Source: Bacteroidota bacterium | GTDB lineage: Bacteria > Bacteroidota > Bacteroidia > Flavobacteriales_D > Crocinitomicaceae | Assembly (NCBI GenBank): GCA_006226425.1 | Contig: SBGX01000020.1 | Span: 1 to 64,000 of the forward strand | Direction: 5' to 3' | Length of the DNA: 64,000 bases | Part shown: positions 609 to 58,294 of the stretch, one piece after another | Layout of the letters: every line of letters starts with the position of its first letter | Position numbering within the stretch: position 1 is the first letter of the stretch | Position numbers and translations under genes: made by a program | Notes under the pieces: generated by a model | Told to the model about the DNA's origin: nothing | Seen by the model: the letters and a program-made list of their open reading frames with translations, nothing else | Databases searched by the model: none

Positions 609-1355
609 TTACATCAGCATTCCACCACAAACATGGATGGTCTGTCCTGTAATGTAAGATGACATATCAGATGCTAAAAACACCGTCGCATCGGCTACAT
701 CTTTCGGTTGTCCACCACGTTTCAATGGAATTGAATTTCTCCATTCTTCCACTACTTTTTCGTCCAGGGCACCGGTCATTTCGGTTTCAATGAATCCTGG
801 TGCAATCGCGTTGCAACGAATATTTCGAGATCCCAATTCCTGAGCCACTGATTTGGTGAATCCGATCAATCCGGCCTTGGATGCCGCATAATTCGACTGC
901 CCGGCATTTCCGCTCACTCCAACAACTGAAGACATATTGATAATCGATCCCTTTCTCGCTTTCAACATCGGTCTCTGAACCGCTTTTGTCAGGTTAAACG
1001 CCGATTTCAGGTTCGTATTGATTACCTCGTCCCACTGTTCTTCTGTCATTCGCATCAAAAGTGTATCACGTGTAATTCCCGCATTGTTGATCAATACGTC
1101 CACCGTTCCGTAGGCAGCGACCACATCATCAACCAATTTCTGCGCGGCTTCAAAATTGCTGGCATCCGACTGAAAACCTTTTACTTCTCCACCCTGAGCA
1201 CTCAACTCTGCTTCCAAAGCTTTTGCCTTTTCCGCAGAAGACATATATGTAAAAGCAACTTTTGCTCCCTGATTCACACATTCCTGTGCGATCGATTTCC
1301 CGATTCCACGAGAAGCACCTGTAATCAGGACTACTTTTCCTTCTAATAACTTCAT
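609..1355 (-). CDS. fabG: 3-oxoacyl-ACP reductase FabG
   Basis: NADPH-dependent reduction of 3-oxoacyl-ACP in fatty-acid elongation, cytoplasmic. It is a classical short-chain dehydrogenase: the Rossmann motif TGASRGIG lies near residue 13, followed by NNAG, the catalytic serine in INMSSVVG, the YAASK catalytic Tyr/Lys pair and the PGFIETEMT loop. With the start chosen here it is 248 residues, the usual FabG length. An ATG seven codons upstream (1376) is possible, but it lies upstream of the expected transcription start of the promoter at 1374-1401, and GAAAGG sits just before the ATG at 1355. It is alone on its strand; no other fatty-acid genes are adjacent. Confidence 0.95.
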   Translation of the reverse strand: MKLLEGKVVLITGASRGIGKSIAQECVNQGAKVAFTYMSSAEKAKALEAELSAQGGEVKGFQSDASNFEAAQKLVDDVVAAYGTVDVLINNAGITRDTLLMRMTEEQWDEVINTNLKSAFNLTKAVQRPMLKARKGSIINMSSVVGVSGNAGQSNYAASKAGLIGFTKSVAQELGSRNIRCNAIAPGFIETEMTGALDEKVVEEWRNSIPLKRGGQPKDVADATVFLASDMSSYITGQTIHVCGGMLM

Positions 1356-1373: not shown

Positions 1374-1401
1374 CAAAGATAAATAATATAGCTTATTTCA
1401 A
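1374..1401 (-). promoter_or_regulatory. fabG promoter (Bacteroidota type)
   Basis: Reading the minus strand, TTG (1399-1401), a 17-base spacer and TATCTTTG (1374-1381) match the Bacteroidota TTG/TAnnTTTG consensus. The expected start of transcription is about 12 bases before the ATG at 1355. Confidence 0.65.
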
Positions 1402-1452
1402 TTCCTTTATCTATTAAAAAGCGGCTTTTGTCAAAAAAATTAAAAATTTCAT

Positions 1453-1482
1453 TGCATCATTCGGATTATTCCTATATATTTG
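1453..1482 (+). promoter_or_regulatory. Promoter in front of a candidate small RNA
   Basis: TTG (1453-1455), a 19-base spacer and TATATTTG (1475-1482) on the plus strand are an exact match to the Bacteroidota promoter consensus. No protein gene lies downstream on this strand; the next element is the hairpin at 1521-1550. Confidence 0.6.
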
Positions 1483-1487
1483 TGTCA

Positions 1488-1556
1488 GGTTTAGTTGTAA
1501 AAGGTAGGTTAGGTTAGGTTAAAAGAGTGAGGCTCCCGCCTCACTCTTTTTCTTTT
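1488..1556 (+). ncRNA. Candidate small RNA, about 65-70 nt
   Basis: This is an inferred transcript, bounded upstream by an exact-consensus promoter (1453-1482) and downstream by a perfect 13-bp hairpin with a T-rich tail on the plus strand. Its 5' half carries a short direct repeat of AGGTT units (about 1503-1520), which would be single-stranded. No start codon with a plausible reading frame is seen. The same hairpin also lies just past the stop of the minus-strand porin gene, so a simple terminator with a chance promoter is the alternative. I do not recognise it as a known RNA family. Confidence 0.35.
1521..1556. terminator. Perfect 13-bp terminator hairpin
   Basis: The arms 1521-1533 and 1538-1550 are perfectly complementary with a 4-base loop (TCCC). 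T-rich flanks are present on both sides, stronger on the plus strand. It lies 30 bases past the minus-strand porin stop and also at the end of the candidate small RNA. Confidence 0.85.
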
Positions 1557-1580
1557 TAGTGCTTTCCGATCCTGCTCCGA

Positions 1581-3326
1581 TTAATTGAAGAAGTCCCAAC
1601 TCAGTCCTAATCGCAACACATTTGGTGTGACCGGATAATTCATTAAATCAATCCGATCAGCGTCATTCCAGAAGTAATCCACATTCTCCAGGGCTACAAA
1701 AAAGCGGAACTCGTCAATTTGGAATGCCGTCATCACATTCAGCTCTACCACGGCCTTTTTCATGACAGCACCTGGAACATCCAAACGGTTCAAATCCAAT
1801 ACGGGATCAATCGACCAAAGCTGAAAGCGGTCTTGATAACGGGTTTCCAATGCGATGACCCAATCAAATTTCTGTGCTTTAAATAATTTCTTTCGGAAAA
1901 ATAAACGCGCCCGAAAATCATACTGGGGCACAATATCTTCTTTTACAGGATTCAACGCTCCATAGAGATGCAAACCAAAAGCCCGTAGAGGAATCGTTGT
2001 ACGCACTTGCAATTGAAGAGCATTTAAAGAAGTTAAACTATCATTTCGCCAGCGATCTACCACGAACAGATAAGGATTTAACCACTGCTTATAGACTACT
2101 CCCAGCTGTGACTTCCAGGTTCCTACCCCTGTTATCTTCGCCCCTAGCTCACGCTGTCCTTCAGTGGACAACTGGTCCAATTTCCACCGGGAACTATTGG
2201 CATAGTATCTCCGCCAATATGGATCGGGAAGTGCTTCCTGGAAGCGATAATGAAGCATGGCCCTCCAGGACTTTTGACGATACTCCAAATTTCCGACCGA
2301 CATCCAGCTTCCGATGGCTCCACTCAAATGAGCCGAAGCCTGATTTCGAAATCGCCATGCCCCCTGATCCCAACGAAGGTTCCAGTGAACAGCTGTTTCA
2401 ACTGTATCCAGGTGTTTTCCCAGATTTTGGTAGTCCCAGTACTTCATACCATACAGTAACTCTGTTGACAGGCCCTTTTTTCTCCAGAACAAACCACTCA
2501 TCGCACTGGCACTTGCTAGCTGGTATTGATCCCTGGTTCGGTTGCTATCTAAATAAAACAAGCTGTATTTGGAGGTCATGTTCAGAGAATCCCGGTACTC
2601 CCGGTGCTGATTCTGCCAGTTCATCTGCTGAGTCCAGCCGAAAGCCGTCAGAGAATCTTTCAACCAATCCCATTCGTAGCTTCCCTGAACCAAAAACTGT
2701 CTTCTTTTCACCTGAGCCTCCGTATTCCCTACCCTCAAAATACTGAGTGCAAAGTCATTCGCCGATAAACTGTCATTCAGACCAAAGTTATACCCGACTT
2801 CACTTTGACGCATCGAGAACTCCAGCAATGCACGAAATTGTTCTCTATGATGATAAATATTCCACTGAAACTGCTGCTGATTGAAACGACCATGGCGCAT
2901 CATTTCGCCCAACTTATCTTGCTCCAGTAATAAGTTAAAAGCCGTCCGTTTTCCCCATTGCTGCTGATAATCCAGATGCAATTGCTGCAGGCCTTTGGAA
3001 CCAAACTGATAGAAGAATCCCAAATGAGGAAGTGCTGAGAAAGCCTGCTTCATCGTACTTCTTGCCGGAAAAGTTCTTCTTGCCCGGTCCAGGTAATGCA
3101 CATAATCTGTCTGATCACTTCCGAAAATATGCTCCTGCGCTCCTCCCGGATGCGTCAGTGTCATTCTTCCCGGATAAAAATCAATTGAATCGAGATGCTC
3201 TCCCCCAATCCGATTTGTAATCCGAATGGTATCCTGCTCAAAAAATAGAAGTGACTGCCCCTTTACAGACAGCAAAGAAAGCAGAGAAAGGAGGAGTATG
3301 AATGTATTTCGGTGAAACACGATCAA
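1581..3326 (-). CDS. Putative outer-membrane porin (Porin_10-like family)
   Basis: A 581-residue protein with a signal peptide at residues 1-23 (hydrophobic run ending in VKGQ). The rest is rich in alternating aromatic and polar strands typical of an outer-membrane beta-barrel, and it ends in an aromatic residue (SWDFFN). Length and composition match the Bacteroidota 'putative porin' family. A conserved N-terminal plug-like segment (DSIDFYPGRMTLTHPGG) follows the signal. Substrate cannot be told from sequence. It lies downstream of rpsT on the same strand but after a terminator, so it is probably transcribed separately; I see no clear promoter in the 84-base gap. Confidence 0.7.
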   Translation of the reverse strand: MIVFHRNTFILLLSLLSLLSVKGQSLLFFEQDTIRITNRIGGEHLDSIDFYPGRMTLTHPGGAQEHIFGSDQTDYVHYLDRARRTFPARSTMKQAFSALPHLGFFYQFGSKGLQQLHLDYQQQWGKRTAFNLLLEQDKLGEMMRHGRFNQQQFQWNIYHHREQFRALLEFSMRQSEVGYNFGLNDSLSANDFALSILRVGNTEAQVKRRQFLVQGSYEWDWLKDSLTAFGWTQQMNWQNQHREYRDSLNMTSKYSLFYLDSNRTRDQYQLASASAMSGLFWRKKGLSTELLYGMKYWDYQNLGKHLDTVETAVHWNLRWDQGAWRFRNQASAHLSGAIGSWMSVGNLEYRQKSWRAMLHYRFQEALPDPYWRRYYANSSRWKLDQLSTEGQRELGAKITGVGTWKSQLGVVYKQWLNPYLFVVDRWRNDSLTSLNALQLQVRTTIPLRAFGLHLYGALNPVKEDIVPQYDFRARLFFRKKLFKAQKFDWVIALETRYQDRFQLWSIDPVLDLNRLDVPGAVMKKAVVELNVMTAFQIDEFRFFVALENVDYFWNDADRIDLMNYPVTPNVLRLGLSWDFFN

Positions 3327-3410: not shown

Positions 3411-3662
3411 TTACAACTTATTCACATGCAACGCCAAACTTGATTTCAAGTTCGCTGCCTTGTTCTTGTGAATGATATTCTTTTTAACCAGTTTGTCAAG
3501 CATTCCACTTACTGATGGAAACAATGTTTCAGCCTCTTTTTTATCCTTCGTAGCTCTCAGTTTACGAACTGCGTTACGAGTTGTTTTGTGCTGATACTTG
3601 TTGCGCAATGCCTTCACTGCGTTAGATCTTACTCTTTTCTTTGCTGACTGATGATTCGCCAT
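3411..3662 (-). CDS. rpsT: 30S ribosomal protein S20
   Basis: An 83-residue, strongly basic alpha-helical protein that begins MANHQSAKKRVRSNAVKALR, the standard S20 N-terminus. S20 binds 16S rRNA early in 30S assembly. The length is normal for the family. It follows two tRNA-Glu genes on the same strand with only 27 bases between, so it probably shares their transcript. A hairpin terminator follows directly. Confidence 0.97.
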   Translation of the reverse strand: MANHQSAKKRVRSNAVKALRNKYQHKTTRNAVRKLRATKDKKEAETLFPSVSGMLDKLVKKNIIHKNKAANLKSSLALHVNKL

Positions 3663-3689: not shown

Positions 3690-3761
3690 CAGCCCATAGG
3701 AGAATCGAACTCCTGTTTCCAGGATGAAAACCTGGCGTCCTAACCACTAGACGAATGGGCC
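3690..3761 (-). tRNA. tRNA-Glu (TTC), copy without encoded CCA
   Basis: The minus-strand cloverleaf has a 7-bp acceptor stem (GGCCCAT with ATGGGCT, first pair G-U), the anticodon arm CCAGG-TTTTCAT-CCTGG giving anticodon TTC, and a T-loop GTTCGATTC. The discriminator base is G. The three bases after it are not CCA, so CCA must be added enzymatically. The mature sequence is identical to the second copy at 3796-3867. Confidence 0.95.
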
Positions 3762-3792: not shown

Positions 3793-3867
3793 TGGCAGCC
3801 CATAGGAGAATCGAACTCCTGTTTCCAGGATGAAAACCTGGCGTCCTAACCACTAGACGAATGGGCC
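3793..3867 (-). tRNA. tRNA-Glu (TTC), copy with encoded CCA
   Basis: Same cloverleaf and anticodon TTC as the neighbouring copy, but the gene continues into an encoded CCA (plus-strand TGG at 3793-3795). The tRNA body is 3796-3867. The two genes are separated by about 31 bases and lie downstream of one consensus promoter. Confidence 0.95.
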
Positions 3868-56788: not shown

Positions 56789-58294
56789 TTAACTAATTAA
56801 TTCTTTGAGTTGCTTCTCCGAAAATCCCTGAAAACAAATCGGCCTCAAAAAACGCGCTATGGCATCACTACCGACGGCCGTAAACCGTGAATCACTGGAA
56901 GCCGGAAACGGGCCTCCGTGATGCATATCCCGATCAACCGTTACCCCGGTCGGAACACCATTTAACACCATTCTTCCGGCATGCGACATTCCCCATTCAA
57001 AAACCGAACGATATTGTTTCAATTCACTATCGGAGGCAAACACACTACAGGTTAATTGCCCTGCTAAATTATTCAATACTTCCAGCAATTGCGCTTCATC
57101 CTTACATCGCACAAATAGCGTATGCAAACCAAACACCTCCTCTGCAAGCACTTGACTGCTGACAAAGGTTTCCGCAGACAATTCTACCATAAAAGGTTCG
57201 GCAATACCTGTTTTTTCTGGCAACTCCACGTTCACCCCCTTTTCCTGGAGTAAAAGCACATTCCGTTCCAAGCCTCCATAATACTTCTCATATAAGTCCG
57301 GGTGGACCATCACCTGAGGCGCAATCGCCTTAACAGCCGCACTCATTTCATGCACCAAATAGTCCCACTCGGAAGACGCCAGGCCAATGACCAAACCTGG
57401 ATTCGTACAAAATTGTCCGGCATCCAGCGTCATCGAATCTCGTATCAGAGTAACTAGTTGCTCTTTCTCATCTTTCAGTTTCTGAGGCAATACCACTATC
57501 GGGTTAACGCTTCCCATTTCAGCAAAGAAAGGAATTGGCTCTTTCCGATTTTGAGCAATTTGATACAGGGCCATCCCTCCAGGAATACTGCCCGTAAAAC
57601 CTACTGCCTTTACCAATTCATGTTTTACCAAAAAAGCACCTAACCAATGTCCCTTCGCATTTAGATTGGAAAAAACTCCATCAGGCATCTTTGTCTCCTT
57701 CGCCGCCCGATTCACCAGTTGTGCCACTAAATCTCCTGTGCCGGCATGCATCTCATGTCCCTTTACAATCACCGGACAACCTGCCGCTAGTGCCGAAGCA
57801 CTATCTCCACCCATCGTGGAATAGGCAAAGGGAAAATTAGAAGCCCCAAAAACCACTACAGGACCCAGACTCAGAAATCTTTTATTCAAAAAACATGCTT
57901 CATCCGAATCGCTCTCGGAAGGCAACAAGCGTTGATTCTGTTCGATTGCTTTCGCAAAATGTTCTAATTGAAAACAGGTACGATCTAATTCCGCCGCAGC
58001 TCTTTTTTCAGAGAGCCCTGACTCCAGACAAAAAATTTGTTCCAGATAAACCCGTTCTGCTCTAAATGATTCAGCAATTTTCCTTAAAAATTCAGCCCTT
58101 CTACTTATGGGCATAAAACGATAAGCCTCCCAGGCAAGGTGAGCTTTTCGTACCGATTCATAAGCCATCTCTTCCGTGGCTTCTTCAATCACAAAATGAT
58201 TTTCTTCGTTCCGTTTCGGGTTGTAAGTCCTGAATGTCTTGACAGCCCCCTCCCCATTGGAAAAACCTAGTATATTCTTCCCTTGAACTTCCAT
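56789..58294 (-). CDS. Aldehyde dehydrogenase (NADP-type, ketoglutarate-semialdehyde-like)
   Basis: A 501-residue aldehyde dehydrogenase. Catalytic residues are in place: Asn154 (GASNFPFA), Lys178 (IVKGHEMH), Glu259 (FFAEMGSVNP) and nucleophile Cys296 (DAGQFCTNPG). The GSVNP and QFCTNPG wording is typical of the NADP-dependent 2-oxoglutarate-semialdehyde dehydrogenase subgroup, used in pentose or hydroxyproline breakdown, but no such pathway genes are nearby. It lies 5 bases behind purS, an unexpected metabolic partner. Confidence 0.88.
   Translation of the reverse strand: MEVQGKNILGFSNGEGAVKTFRTYNPKRNEENHFVIEEATEEMAYESVRKAHLAWEAYRFMPISRRAEFLRKIAESFRAERVYLEQIFCLESGLSEKRAAAELDRTCFQLEHFAKAIEQNQRLLPSESDSDEACFLNKRFLSLGPVVVFGASNFPFAYSTMGGDSASALAAGCPVIVKGHEMHAGTGDLVAQLVNRAAKETKMPDGVFSNLNAKGHWLGAFLVKHELVKAVGFTGSIPGGMALYQIAQNRKEPIPFFAEMGSVNPIVVLPQKLKDEKEQLVTLIRDSMTLDAGQFCTNPGLVIGLASSEWDYLVHEMSAAVKAIAPQVMVHPDLYEKYYGGLERNVLLLQEKGVNVELPEKTGIAEPFMVELSAETFVSSQVLAEEVFGLHTLFVRCKDEAQLLEVLNNLAGQLTCSVFASDSELKQYRSVFEWGMSHAGRMVLNGVPTGVTVDRDMHHGGPFPASSDSRFTAVGSDAIARFLRPICFQGFSEKQLKELIS

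Follow-up and report, generated by a model that had tools for sequence, protein, structure and literature searches.

Does the gap between two minus-strand genes of a Crocinitomicaceae genome hold a small RNA (sRNA) gene of its own, and would such an RNA serve its neighbors or act elsewhere? The window, a 64,000-nucleotide (nt) stretch of a Bacteroidota bacterium (assembly GCA_006226425.1, contig SBGX01000020.1, positions 1 to 64,000, forward strand), raises this question at 1356–1580, between a fabG-like gene and a putative porin gene, where an sRNA candidate lies on the plus strand. The gene, for an RNA of about 70 nt, has a promoter and a terminator to itself. It very probably encodes a genuine regulatory RNA, one that Rfam does not list, and from its sequence features we put the probability that it is a stand-alone, trans-acting sRNA gene at roughly 0.72. 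Most likely it is a trans-acting sRNA resembling FopS of Bacteroides. The element and its copies in relatives are called class A below. The assignment draws on a housekeeping-type Bacteroidota promoter (TTG / TAnnTTTG), a nearly invariant 5′ front of about 26–34 nt that has almost no C and is unpaired in the predicted fold, and a Rho-independent terminator that covaries and has the right orientation for the plus strand. Conservation strongly supports the original prediction of an orphan sRNA with its own promoter, a repeat-bearing open 5′ part and a terminator.

Promoter, front and terminator of the predicted RNA

The candidate is composed of the following features.

1452..1454, plus strand: TTG, the −33 element of the predicted sRNA promoter (27 of 42 distinct copies have the box with a TTG 17–22 nt upstream)
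1475..1482, plus strand: TATATTTG (TAnnTTTG), the −7 element of the predicted promoter, its register kept across copies
1487..1557, plus strand: inferred small RNA, its start at A1487 taken from the box position; the conserved block of the relatives begins at the same base
1487..1520, plus strand: conserved, C-free 5′ region AGGUUUAGUUGUAAAAGGUAGGUUAGGUUAGGUU, unpaired in the predicted fold, the proposed interaction surface
1521..1550, plus strand: terminator hairpin, a perfect 13-base-pair stem (1521–1533/1538–1550) with a 4-nt loop, covarying across the 42 copies
1547..1557, plus strand: terminator U tract TTTTTCTTTTT, overlapping the stem foot; 40 of the 42 copies have more T on the plus than on the minus side

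The plus-strand promoter-like pair that had been proposed is present, with a spacer of 20 rather than 19 nt between TTG and TATATTTG. Four bases separate the end of the box (1482) from A1487. In the portion of PMC9723704 that describes it, the TAnnTTTG box of Flavobacterium psychrophilum lies at −12 to −5, and applying this position to TATATTTG predicts a start at A1487. With a 3′ end at about 1551–1557, the inferred RNA would be about 65–70 nt long, in agreement with the length first suggested. No plus-strand open reading frame (ORF) of at least 60 amino acids (aa) is listed in the gap, which had been described as free of plus-strand genes. Elsewhere, TTG-N18-21-TAnnTTTG occurs 45 times in a 464-kb sample of this genome; 26 of these sites fall in the 70 kb outside called ORFs, where a Markov-1 model expects 6.25 ± 2.1, and of these, 18 point toward the start of a gene. 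A promoter match alone is therefore only moderately unusual, and it is conservation that shows the feature to be real.

The front, AGGTTTAGTTGTAAAAGGTAGGTTAGGTTAGGTT (1487–1520), has 34 nt with 13 U, 12 G, 9 A and no C; it is therefore C-free instead of U-poor, as it had been called. In 38 of the 42 copies there is no C within 28 nt of front. The folding energy of the RNA is low for its composition (z = −2.44; 3 of 200 shuffles as good). The front lacks a reading frame, its sole start-like codon being a TTG followed by TAA, and a GTG inside the hairpin opens 10 codons. AGG units in the GUAGG(UUAGG)n run number one in 4 copies, two in 25 and three in 13, while the most constant part of the front, partly fixed by the search pattern, is the non-repeat GGUUUAGUUGUAAAAGGUAGG. 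A two-tetrad G-quadruplex was also considered for the front; two copies (L031 and L071) lose a GG.

The hairpin and its T-rich tail are as first described. A good U tract follows the hairpin on the plus strand only (TTTTTCTTTTT), the minus strand giving four U and then AACC. Averaged over the 42 copies, the 12 positions after the hairpin contain 7.24 T on the plus and 3.36 T on the minus strand, and the plus value is the larger in 40, a count that includes three rows wrongly cut by the stem finder (L054, L057 and L084); two of these, L054 and L084, are the two copies that do not favor the plus side. This one-sided U tract indicates that the hairpin serves the sRNA and is not the terminator of the porin gene. 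The minus strand lacks the U tract after the hairpin that a Rho-independent porin terminator would have, so the earlier suggestion that the hairpin doubles in that role is not borne out.

Conservation and covariation across relatives

When 99 relatives were searched for the porin at the protein level, 48 matched, and 30 loci were taken, including that of the window. Eight loci besides our own have a fabG-like gene adjoining the porin gene, and all of these were found without using the RNA sequence. The element is present in six of the nine porin–fabG gaps (the window's own, L013, L015, L029, L031 and L037) and was not found in three short ones (L017, L023 and L024). The front is nearly identical in five relatives whose porins share 25–33% identity with that of the window, and the remaining gap sequence seems, by eye, unrelated between these loci.

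Named genomes were scanned with a front-derived pattern, which returned 46 exact-pattern loci. By title these are mostly Crocinitomicaceae, Fluviicola, Flavobacteriales/Flavobacteriia and unplaced Bacteroidetes metagenome-assembled genomes (MAGs); strains of Taishania pollutisoli and Lishizhenia tianjinensis are also among them, as are two MAGs titled Chitinophaga pinensis and Chryseobacterium gleum. Viral contigs gave 0 exact matches. The pattern loci and the earlier loci, with duplicates removed, make up the 42 distinct copies.

We then ran a covariance model of the element, R1, on 200 genomes of the Crocinitomicaceae, whose members are water bacteria; on the large samples Infernal's stricter filters were used. 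Within the family, 134 of the 200 genomes matched at E ≤ 0.01, with scores in two tiers. The upper tier comprises 56 places of at least 54.6 bits in 55 genomes and 11 of 24 genera, the next score being 46.5 bits; 54 of the 55 genomes have a single such place, and all five genomes of the window's own genus are included. R1 matched 88 genomes at E ≤ 0.01 in an order sample of 299 that includes the family. Outside the family, this sample gave no upper-tier match and 22 genomes at E ≤ 0.01 (best, 39.3 bits). In a phylum sample of 345 genomes, searched at E ≤ 1e-4, our genome was the only upper-tier match, and three f17 genomes scored 35.9–37.8 bits.

A front core of 26 nt is nearly invariant in the 42 copies, an invariance that is partly built in because the copies were selected by the search pattern. 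Of the upper-tier places, 49 of 56 were inspected (51 rows, two places twice), and nine were off-pattern, with 1–3 edits in the core. Near-invariance is therefore not merely an effect of the pattern, although the covariance model that found the off-pattern copies was itself trained on pattern copies.

Stem letters change yet stay paired, and the promoter is conserved alongside, which is what the proposed alignment with relatives was to look for. Across the 42 copies, pairing holds in 96.0% of stem cells (shuffles, 78.7%), and both sides have changed in 100 cells (shuffles, 28.8); 0 of 500 shuffles are as high on either measure. The structure prediction came from this very alignment, which tilts the result in its favor, but the gap to the controls is large: sliding the stem partner lowers pairing to 51–60%. 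Relative to the conserved A, the promoter box (at least five of six fixed letters) has its end at −5 in 23 copies and at −4 in 12, with 27 boxes perfect; no other offset exceeds 8 boxes (at −33, all imperfect), and the median there is 0. Over the range −6 to −4, the box is found in 36 of the 42 copies, and 27 of these also have a TTG 17–22 nt upstream. Loss of the box with the hairpin kept, which was to reduce the element to a simple terminator, is thus mostly not seen; six copies keep front and hairpin without such a box.

In this genome, a 28-nt stretch (L003; G000:C9:162590-162617) near what is, by eye, a dusB-like gene is 90% like the front. Promoter and hairpin are absent there by eye, and we treated this candidate second copy as a chance resemblance.

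Against Rfam release 15 at gathering threshold, the window matched two tRNAs only, leaving the gap unmatched; plus-strand sub-threshold scores in the gap reached 26.8 bits, with 95.5 needed, and 18.5, with 77 needed. Ten related loci likewise gave two tRNAs only, and relaxed thresholds gave nothing credible. An open-licence literature search returned no record of a small RNA for Crocinitomicaceae or of an sRNA for Fluviicola. The sRNA is conserved, absent from the databases and literature searched, and in all likelihood real.

Mode of action and target searches

How might such an RNA work? The FopS-like build, together with RRM_1 genes in the genome, favors an sRNA that would work in trans through its front, possibly with an RRM protein. 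The RNA would be made from the TTG / TATATTTG promoter. Its open 5′ part would be the working surface, binding short C/A-rich stretches of several mRNAs, an RNA-binding protein, possibly an RRM protein, or both. Binding would alter how stable those mRNAs are or how well they are translated, which is the way FopS acts in Bacteroides; the hairpin would merely end and protect the RNA, and the place beside the porin gene would be an inherited position and not a mode of action. RRM_1 proteins were found in 10 of 10 genomes tested, two of them in this genome.

Besides the built-in share of the front's invariance and the training of the model on pattern copies, several results count against this trans-acting sRNA. 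Expression itself is deduced from the DNA. Among the genomes with empty porin–fabG gaps, one (G022) has an upper-tier copy elsewhere and two (G013 and G039) have no upper-tier match. Changes on both sides occur in 12 of 12 stem pairs, but 14 of 500 shuffles match this. Long sites antisense to the front numbered seven non-self in 10 genomes, compared to 71 for the reversed pattern, and two of the seven are genes of a look-alike RNA, class B, described below. Pairing of the front with 371 start regions of the 464-kb sample was no better than for shuffles (at −14 kcal/mol, 114 pairings and a shuffle mean of 115.2), so that it does not pair with translation starts above expectation; these tests address broad pairing, and a few short targets would escape them. 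Pairing to the 16S tail, as an anti-Shine–Dalgarno-type interaction, is ordinary (112 of 500 shuffles as good). Only the difference between starts and ORF bodies leans toward class A, with 4 of 60 shuffles as low. Signal-peptide-like genes, by a crude rule, make up 3 of the top 20 partners (shuffles, 4.5 ± 1.7). The 5′ part is unpaired in the predicted fold, as had been proposed; for its pairing with mRNAs both target tests were negative. A pairing with the fabG start (−21.3 kcal/mol) was rejected: it involves DNA that lies ahead of the likely start site, and in L013 the leader is, by eye, different.

These negative results leave room for a protein sponge or ribonucleoprotein scaffold, in which the AGGUU-rich, C-free front would titrate an RNA-binding protein, such as an RRM protein, in the manner of CsrB, with mRNA pairing unneeded. 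Sponges of the CsrB/RsmY type carry a repeated short motif in unpaired RNA, with GGA in loops; class A shares the repeated unpaired motif and differs in having AGGUU and few repeats. Near-invariance over 26 nt is long for one pairing seed, the AGG units do repeat, the mRNA-pairing signal is absent in both target tests, and RRM_1 proteins occur in every genome tested. The repeats are few, however, and constancy is highest in the non-repeat GGUUUAGUUGUAAAAGGUAGG, itself partly pattern-fixed; RRM proteins also occur in a genome without upper-tier class A (G099). We regard a sponge as possible, though clearly the less likely role for this RNA.

Genomic context of the copies

The genes on either side of the gap are both on the minus strand.

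609..1355, minus strand: fabG-like short-chain dehydrogenase, 248 aa (adh_short_C2 match)
1581..3326, minus strand: putative porin, convergent with the sRNA (Pfam Porin_10 match)
1374..1401, minus strand: promoter-like site TTG-N17-TATCTTTG, separate, of the fabG-like gene (from sequence)

An element acting in cis on this locus, as a convergent antisense RNA or shared terminator whose overlap regulates the porin, would explain why 31 of the 42 copies lie past the 3′ end of a convergent porin gene. An opposite-strand fabG-like gene is upstream in 30 copies, some upstream flanks being cut by contig or locus ends (the shortest at 348 nt), and 28 copies have both neighbors. Nine copies, however, have neither and keep the front, and in each of them no porin match appears in 2,287 nt or more of downstream sequence. 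Syntenic porins at 25–33% identity beside a front that hardly changes also argue against action in cis. Together with the U tract on one side in 40 copies, the nine copies with neither neighbor indicate that the RNA probably acts in trans and is not a porin terminator; tail-to-tail overlap as the mode of action, also part of the original prediction, does not fit them. The element has its own promoter and terminator and is not bound to one neighbor, as a trans-acting sRNA would be, and we consider a cis element improbable.

The order of promoter, conserved RNA and terminator would also suit a leader or riboswitch-like attenuator of a downstream plus-strand gene. The 11 copies without the porin have varied neighbors, which from their translations we take to be carB/parE-like, PpiD-like, miaA-like and others. 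The next downstream ORF is on the plus strand, 80–500 nt off, in seven of these copies, which do not lie between porin and fabG, but those ORFs are of several kinds, and the other four, like the 31 copies followed by the porin, have an opposite-strand gene next; a leader is very improbable. A chance promoter beside an ordinary terminator, with nothing transcribed, could draw on the promoter-like sites elsewhere and the six copies without a box, but conservation, covariation and the register of the box make it hardly credible.

Two tandem tRNA genes, identical by eye and equal in score, lie at 3690–3761 and 3796–3867 of the window (minus strand), directly upstream of an rpsT-like gene (3411–3662).

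Two look-alike classes

Two more sets of sRNA-like genes, classes B and C, came to light through the lower-tier matches of R1. Class B, marked by TTAGTTTTCATAAGTAGTAG, was found at 22 places in the fetched loci, 21 of them distinct. Upstream of 16 of the 22 lies TGGCA(C/T)-N5-TT(G/T)(A/G)A, with one more recognized by eye (L122:256); the other five, first copies of arrays, have other upstream sequence. Our genome has a second sRNA-like gene, of class B.

L120:476-561, minus strand (G000:C25, about 57575–57660): class B gene, matched at 57572–57660 by model R2 with 79.7 bits

Its promoter, TTGGCAC-AGTAT-TTGAA, is of the sigma-54 type, and its front is antisense to CTACTACTTATGAAAAC. Model R2, for class B, matched 121 of the 200 family genomes at E ≤ 1e-4. 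At E ≤ 1e-6 it matched 58 of the 299 genomes of the order sample, G088 being the only one from outside the family. Class C, with the front GATTTAGGTGGTTAGGTTAGGTTGATTA, is found in L132, L124, L125 and L126–L128 (G009, G148, G099, G057 and G047), in several copies in some genomes; its model, R3, matched 66 of the 200 family genomes, and our genome has none. R2 rests on 21 sequences and R3 on 6, and their lower matches overlap other classes (for example, contig C16 of G004 in R1, R2 and R3), which makes the R2 and R3 counts upper bounds. A sigma-54 DNA-binding domain is present in 195 of the 200 genomes, and so nearly universal a presence is no test.

Tandem arrays of three to four class B genes occur in L121, L122, L123, L130 and L131 (G158, G225, G173, G152 and G040). 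By eye, the arrays of L121–L123 and L130 adjoin a lepA-like start, and their first copy has a different upstream region. The two copies in L139 (G088:C127) closely resemble those of genus g18; G088 is 71% complete and belongs to another family (f8), and mis-binning or transfer may explain them. In two f17 genomes, an sRNA-like element with CATAAGTAGGTTAAGTTTATGGTA and a terminator (L262:1500-1566, and L263) resembles the class B core, and in L262 it follows a TATATTTG box between purF-like and sodA-like ORFs, by eye.

Sites antisense to class B were not in excess in nine genomes (13 non-self, 19 in the control). Ten of the 13 hold an ATG, and six of the ten start an ORF of at least 140 codons or one running off the locus, and all six look, by eye, signal-peptide-like at the front; the single site in our genome does not coincide with a start. 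For the 371 start regions, duplex energies gave no excess in number. Signal-peptide-like genes make up 12 of the top 20 partners, compared to 7.8 ± 2.3 (maximum 13 over 60) in control shuffles that keep TTTTCAT, the signal-peptide rule again being crude. It is suggestive only that class B targets the AUGAAAA start codons of secreted proteins. The similarity of the three classes is confined to the low-complexity GGUUAGGU and the hairpin and does not establish homology.

Discussion

Which known systems does class A resemble? In the parts of PMC11697453 considered here, the RRM protein RbpB is a binding partner of the Bacteroides FopS sRNAs, which repress the mRNA of a SusC porin, classic RNA chaperones are described as absent from Bacteroides, and FopS is reported as deposited in Rfam. 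Within that same material, class A resembles FopS/GibS of Bacteroides thetaiotaomicron in its housekeeping-type promoter, its phylum, the RRM_1 proteins in its genome (PMC11697453), and its conserved unpaired 5′ stretch followed by a Rho-independent terminator. It differs in number, with 14 FopS members set against one upper-tier place in 54 of 55 genomes, and it has no Rfam match at gathering score; the likeness is one of build. Rfp18 of Flavobacterium psychrophilum, as far as the relevant passages of PMC9723704 describe it, is likewise a conserved flavobacterial sRNA, in the same paper that describes the TAnnTTTG box. Unlike class A, with one hairpin and an open front, it has a strong fold whose third stem-loop is the predicted pairing region (PMC9723704).

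An RNA with this nearly invariant, open front occurs in 55 of the 200 family genomes; named strains of Lishizhenia tianjinensis and Taishania pollutisoli carry it, and it is directly testable there. To our knowledge, the regulatory RNAs of Bacteroidota are little mapped outside a few models.

The Qrr sRNAs of Vibrio are several near-identical sRNAs with sigma-54-type promoters. In both respects they resemble class B only; they belong to another phylum, and the class A promoter is of the housekeeping type. It is a doubtful, tentative idea that classes A, B and C are related and form a family-wide Qrr-like and FopS-like switch in Crocinitomicaceae, governing how much secreted and surface protein is produced. 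If so, the switch would have arms of two sorts, constant and sigma-54-controlled; class A has a housekeeping-type promoter and mostly one copy, and class C a housekeeping-type promoter and up to 11 model matches per genome. Class B, often tandem near-identical RNAs behind TTGGCAC-N5-TTTGAA, would be the sigma-54-controlled arm, its unpaired part antisense to CUACUACUUAUGAAAAC, that is, to the AUGAAAA starts of signal-peptide proteins. These sigma-54-linked look-alikes would add an independent example of sigma-54-controlled sRNAs present in multiple copies.
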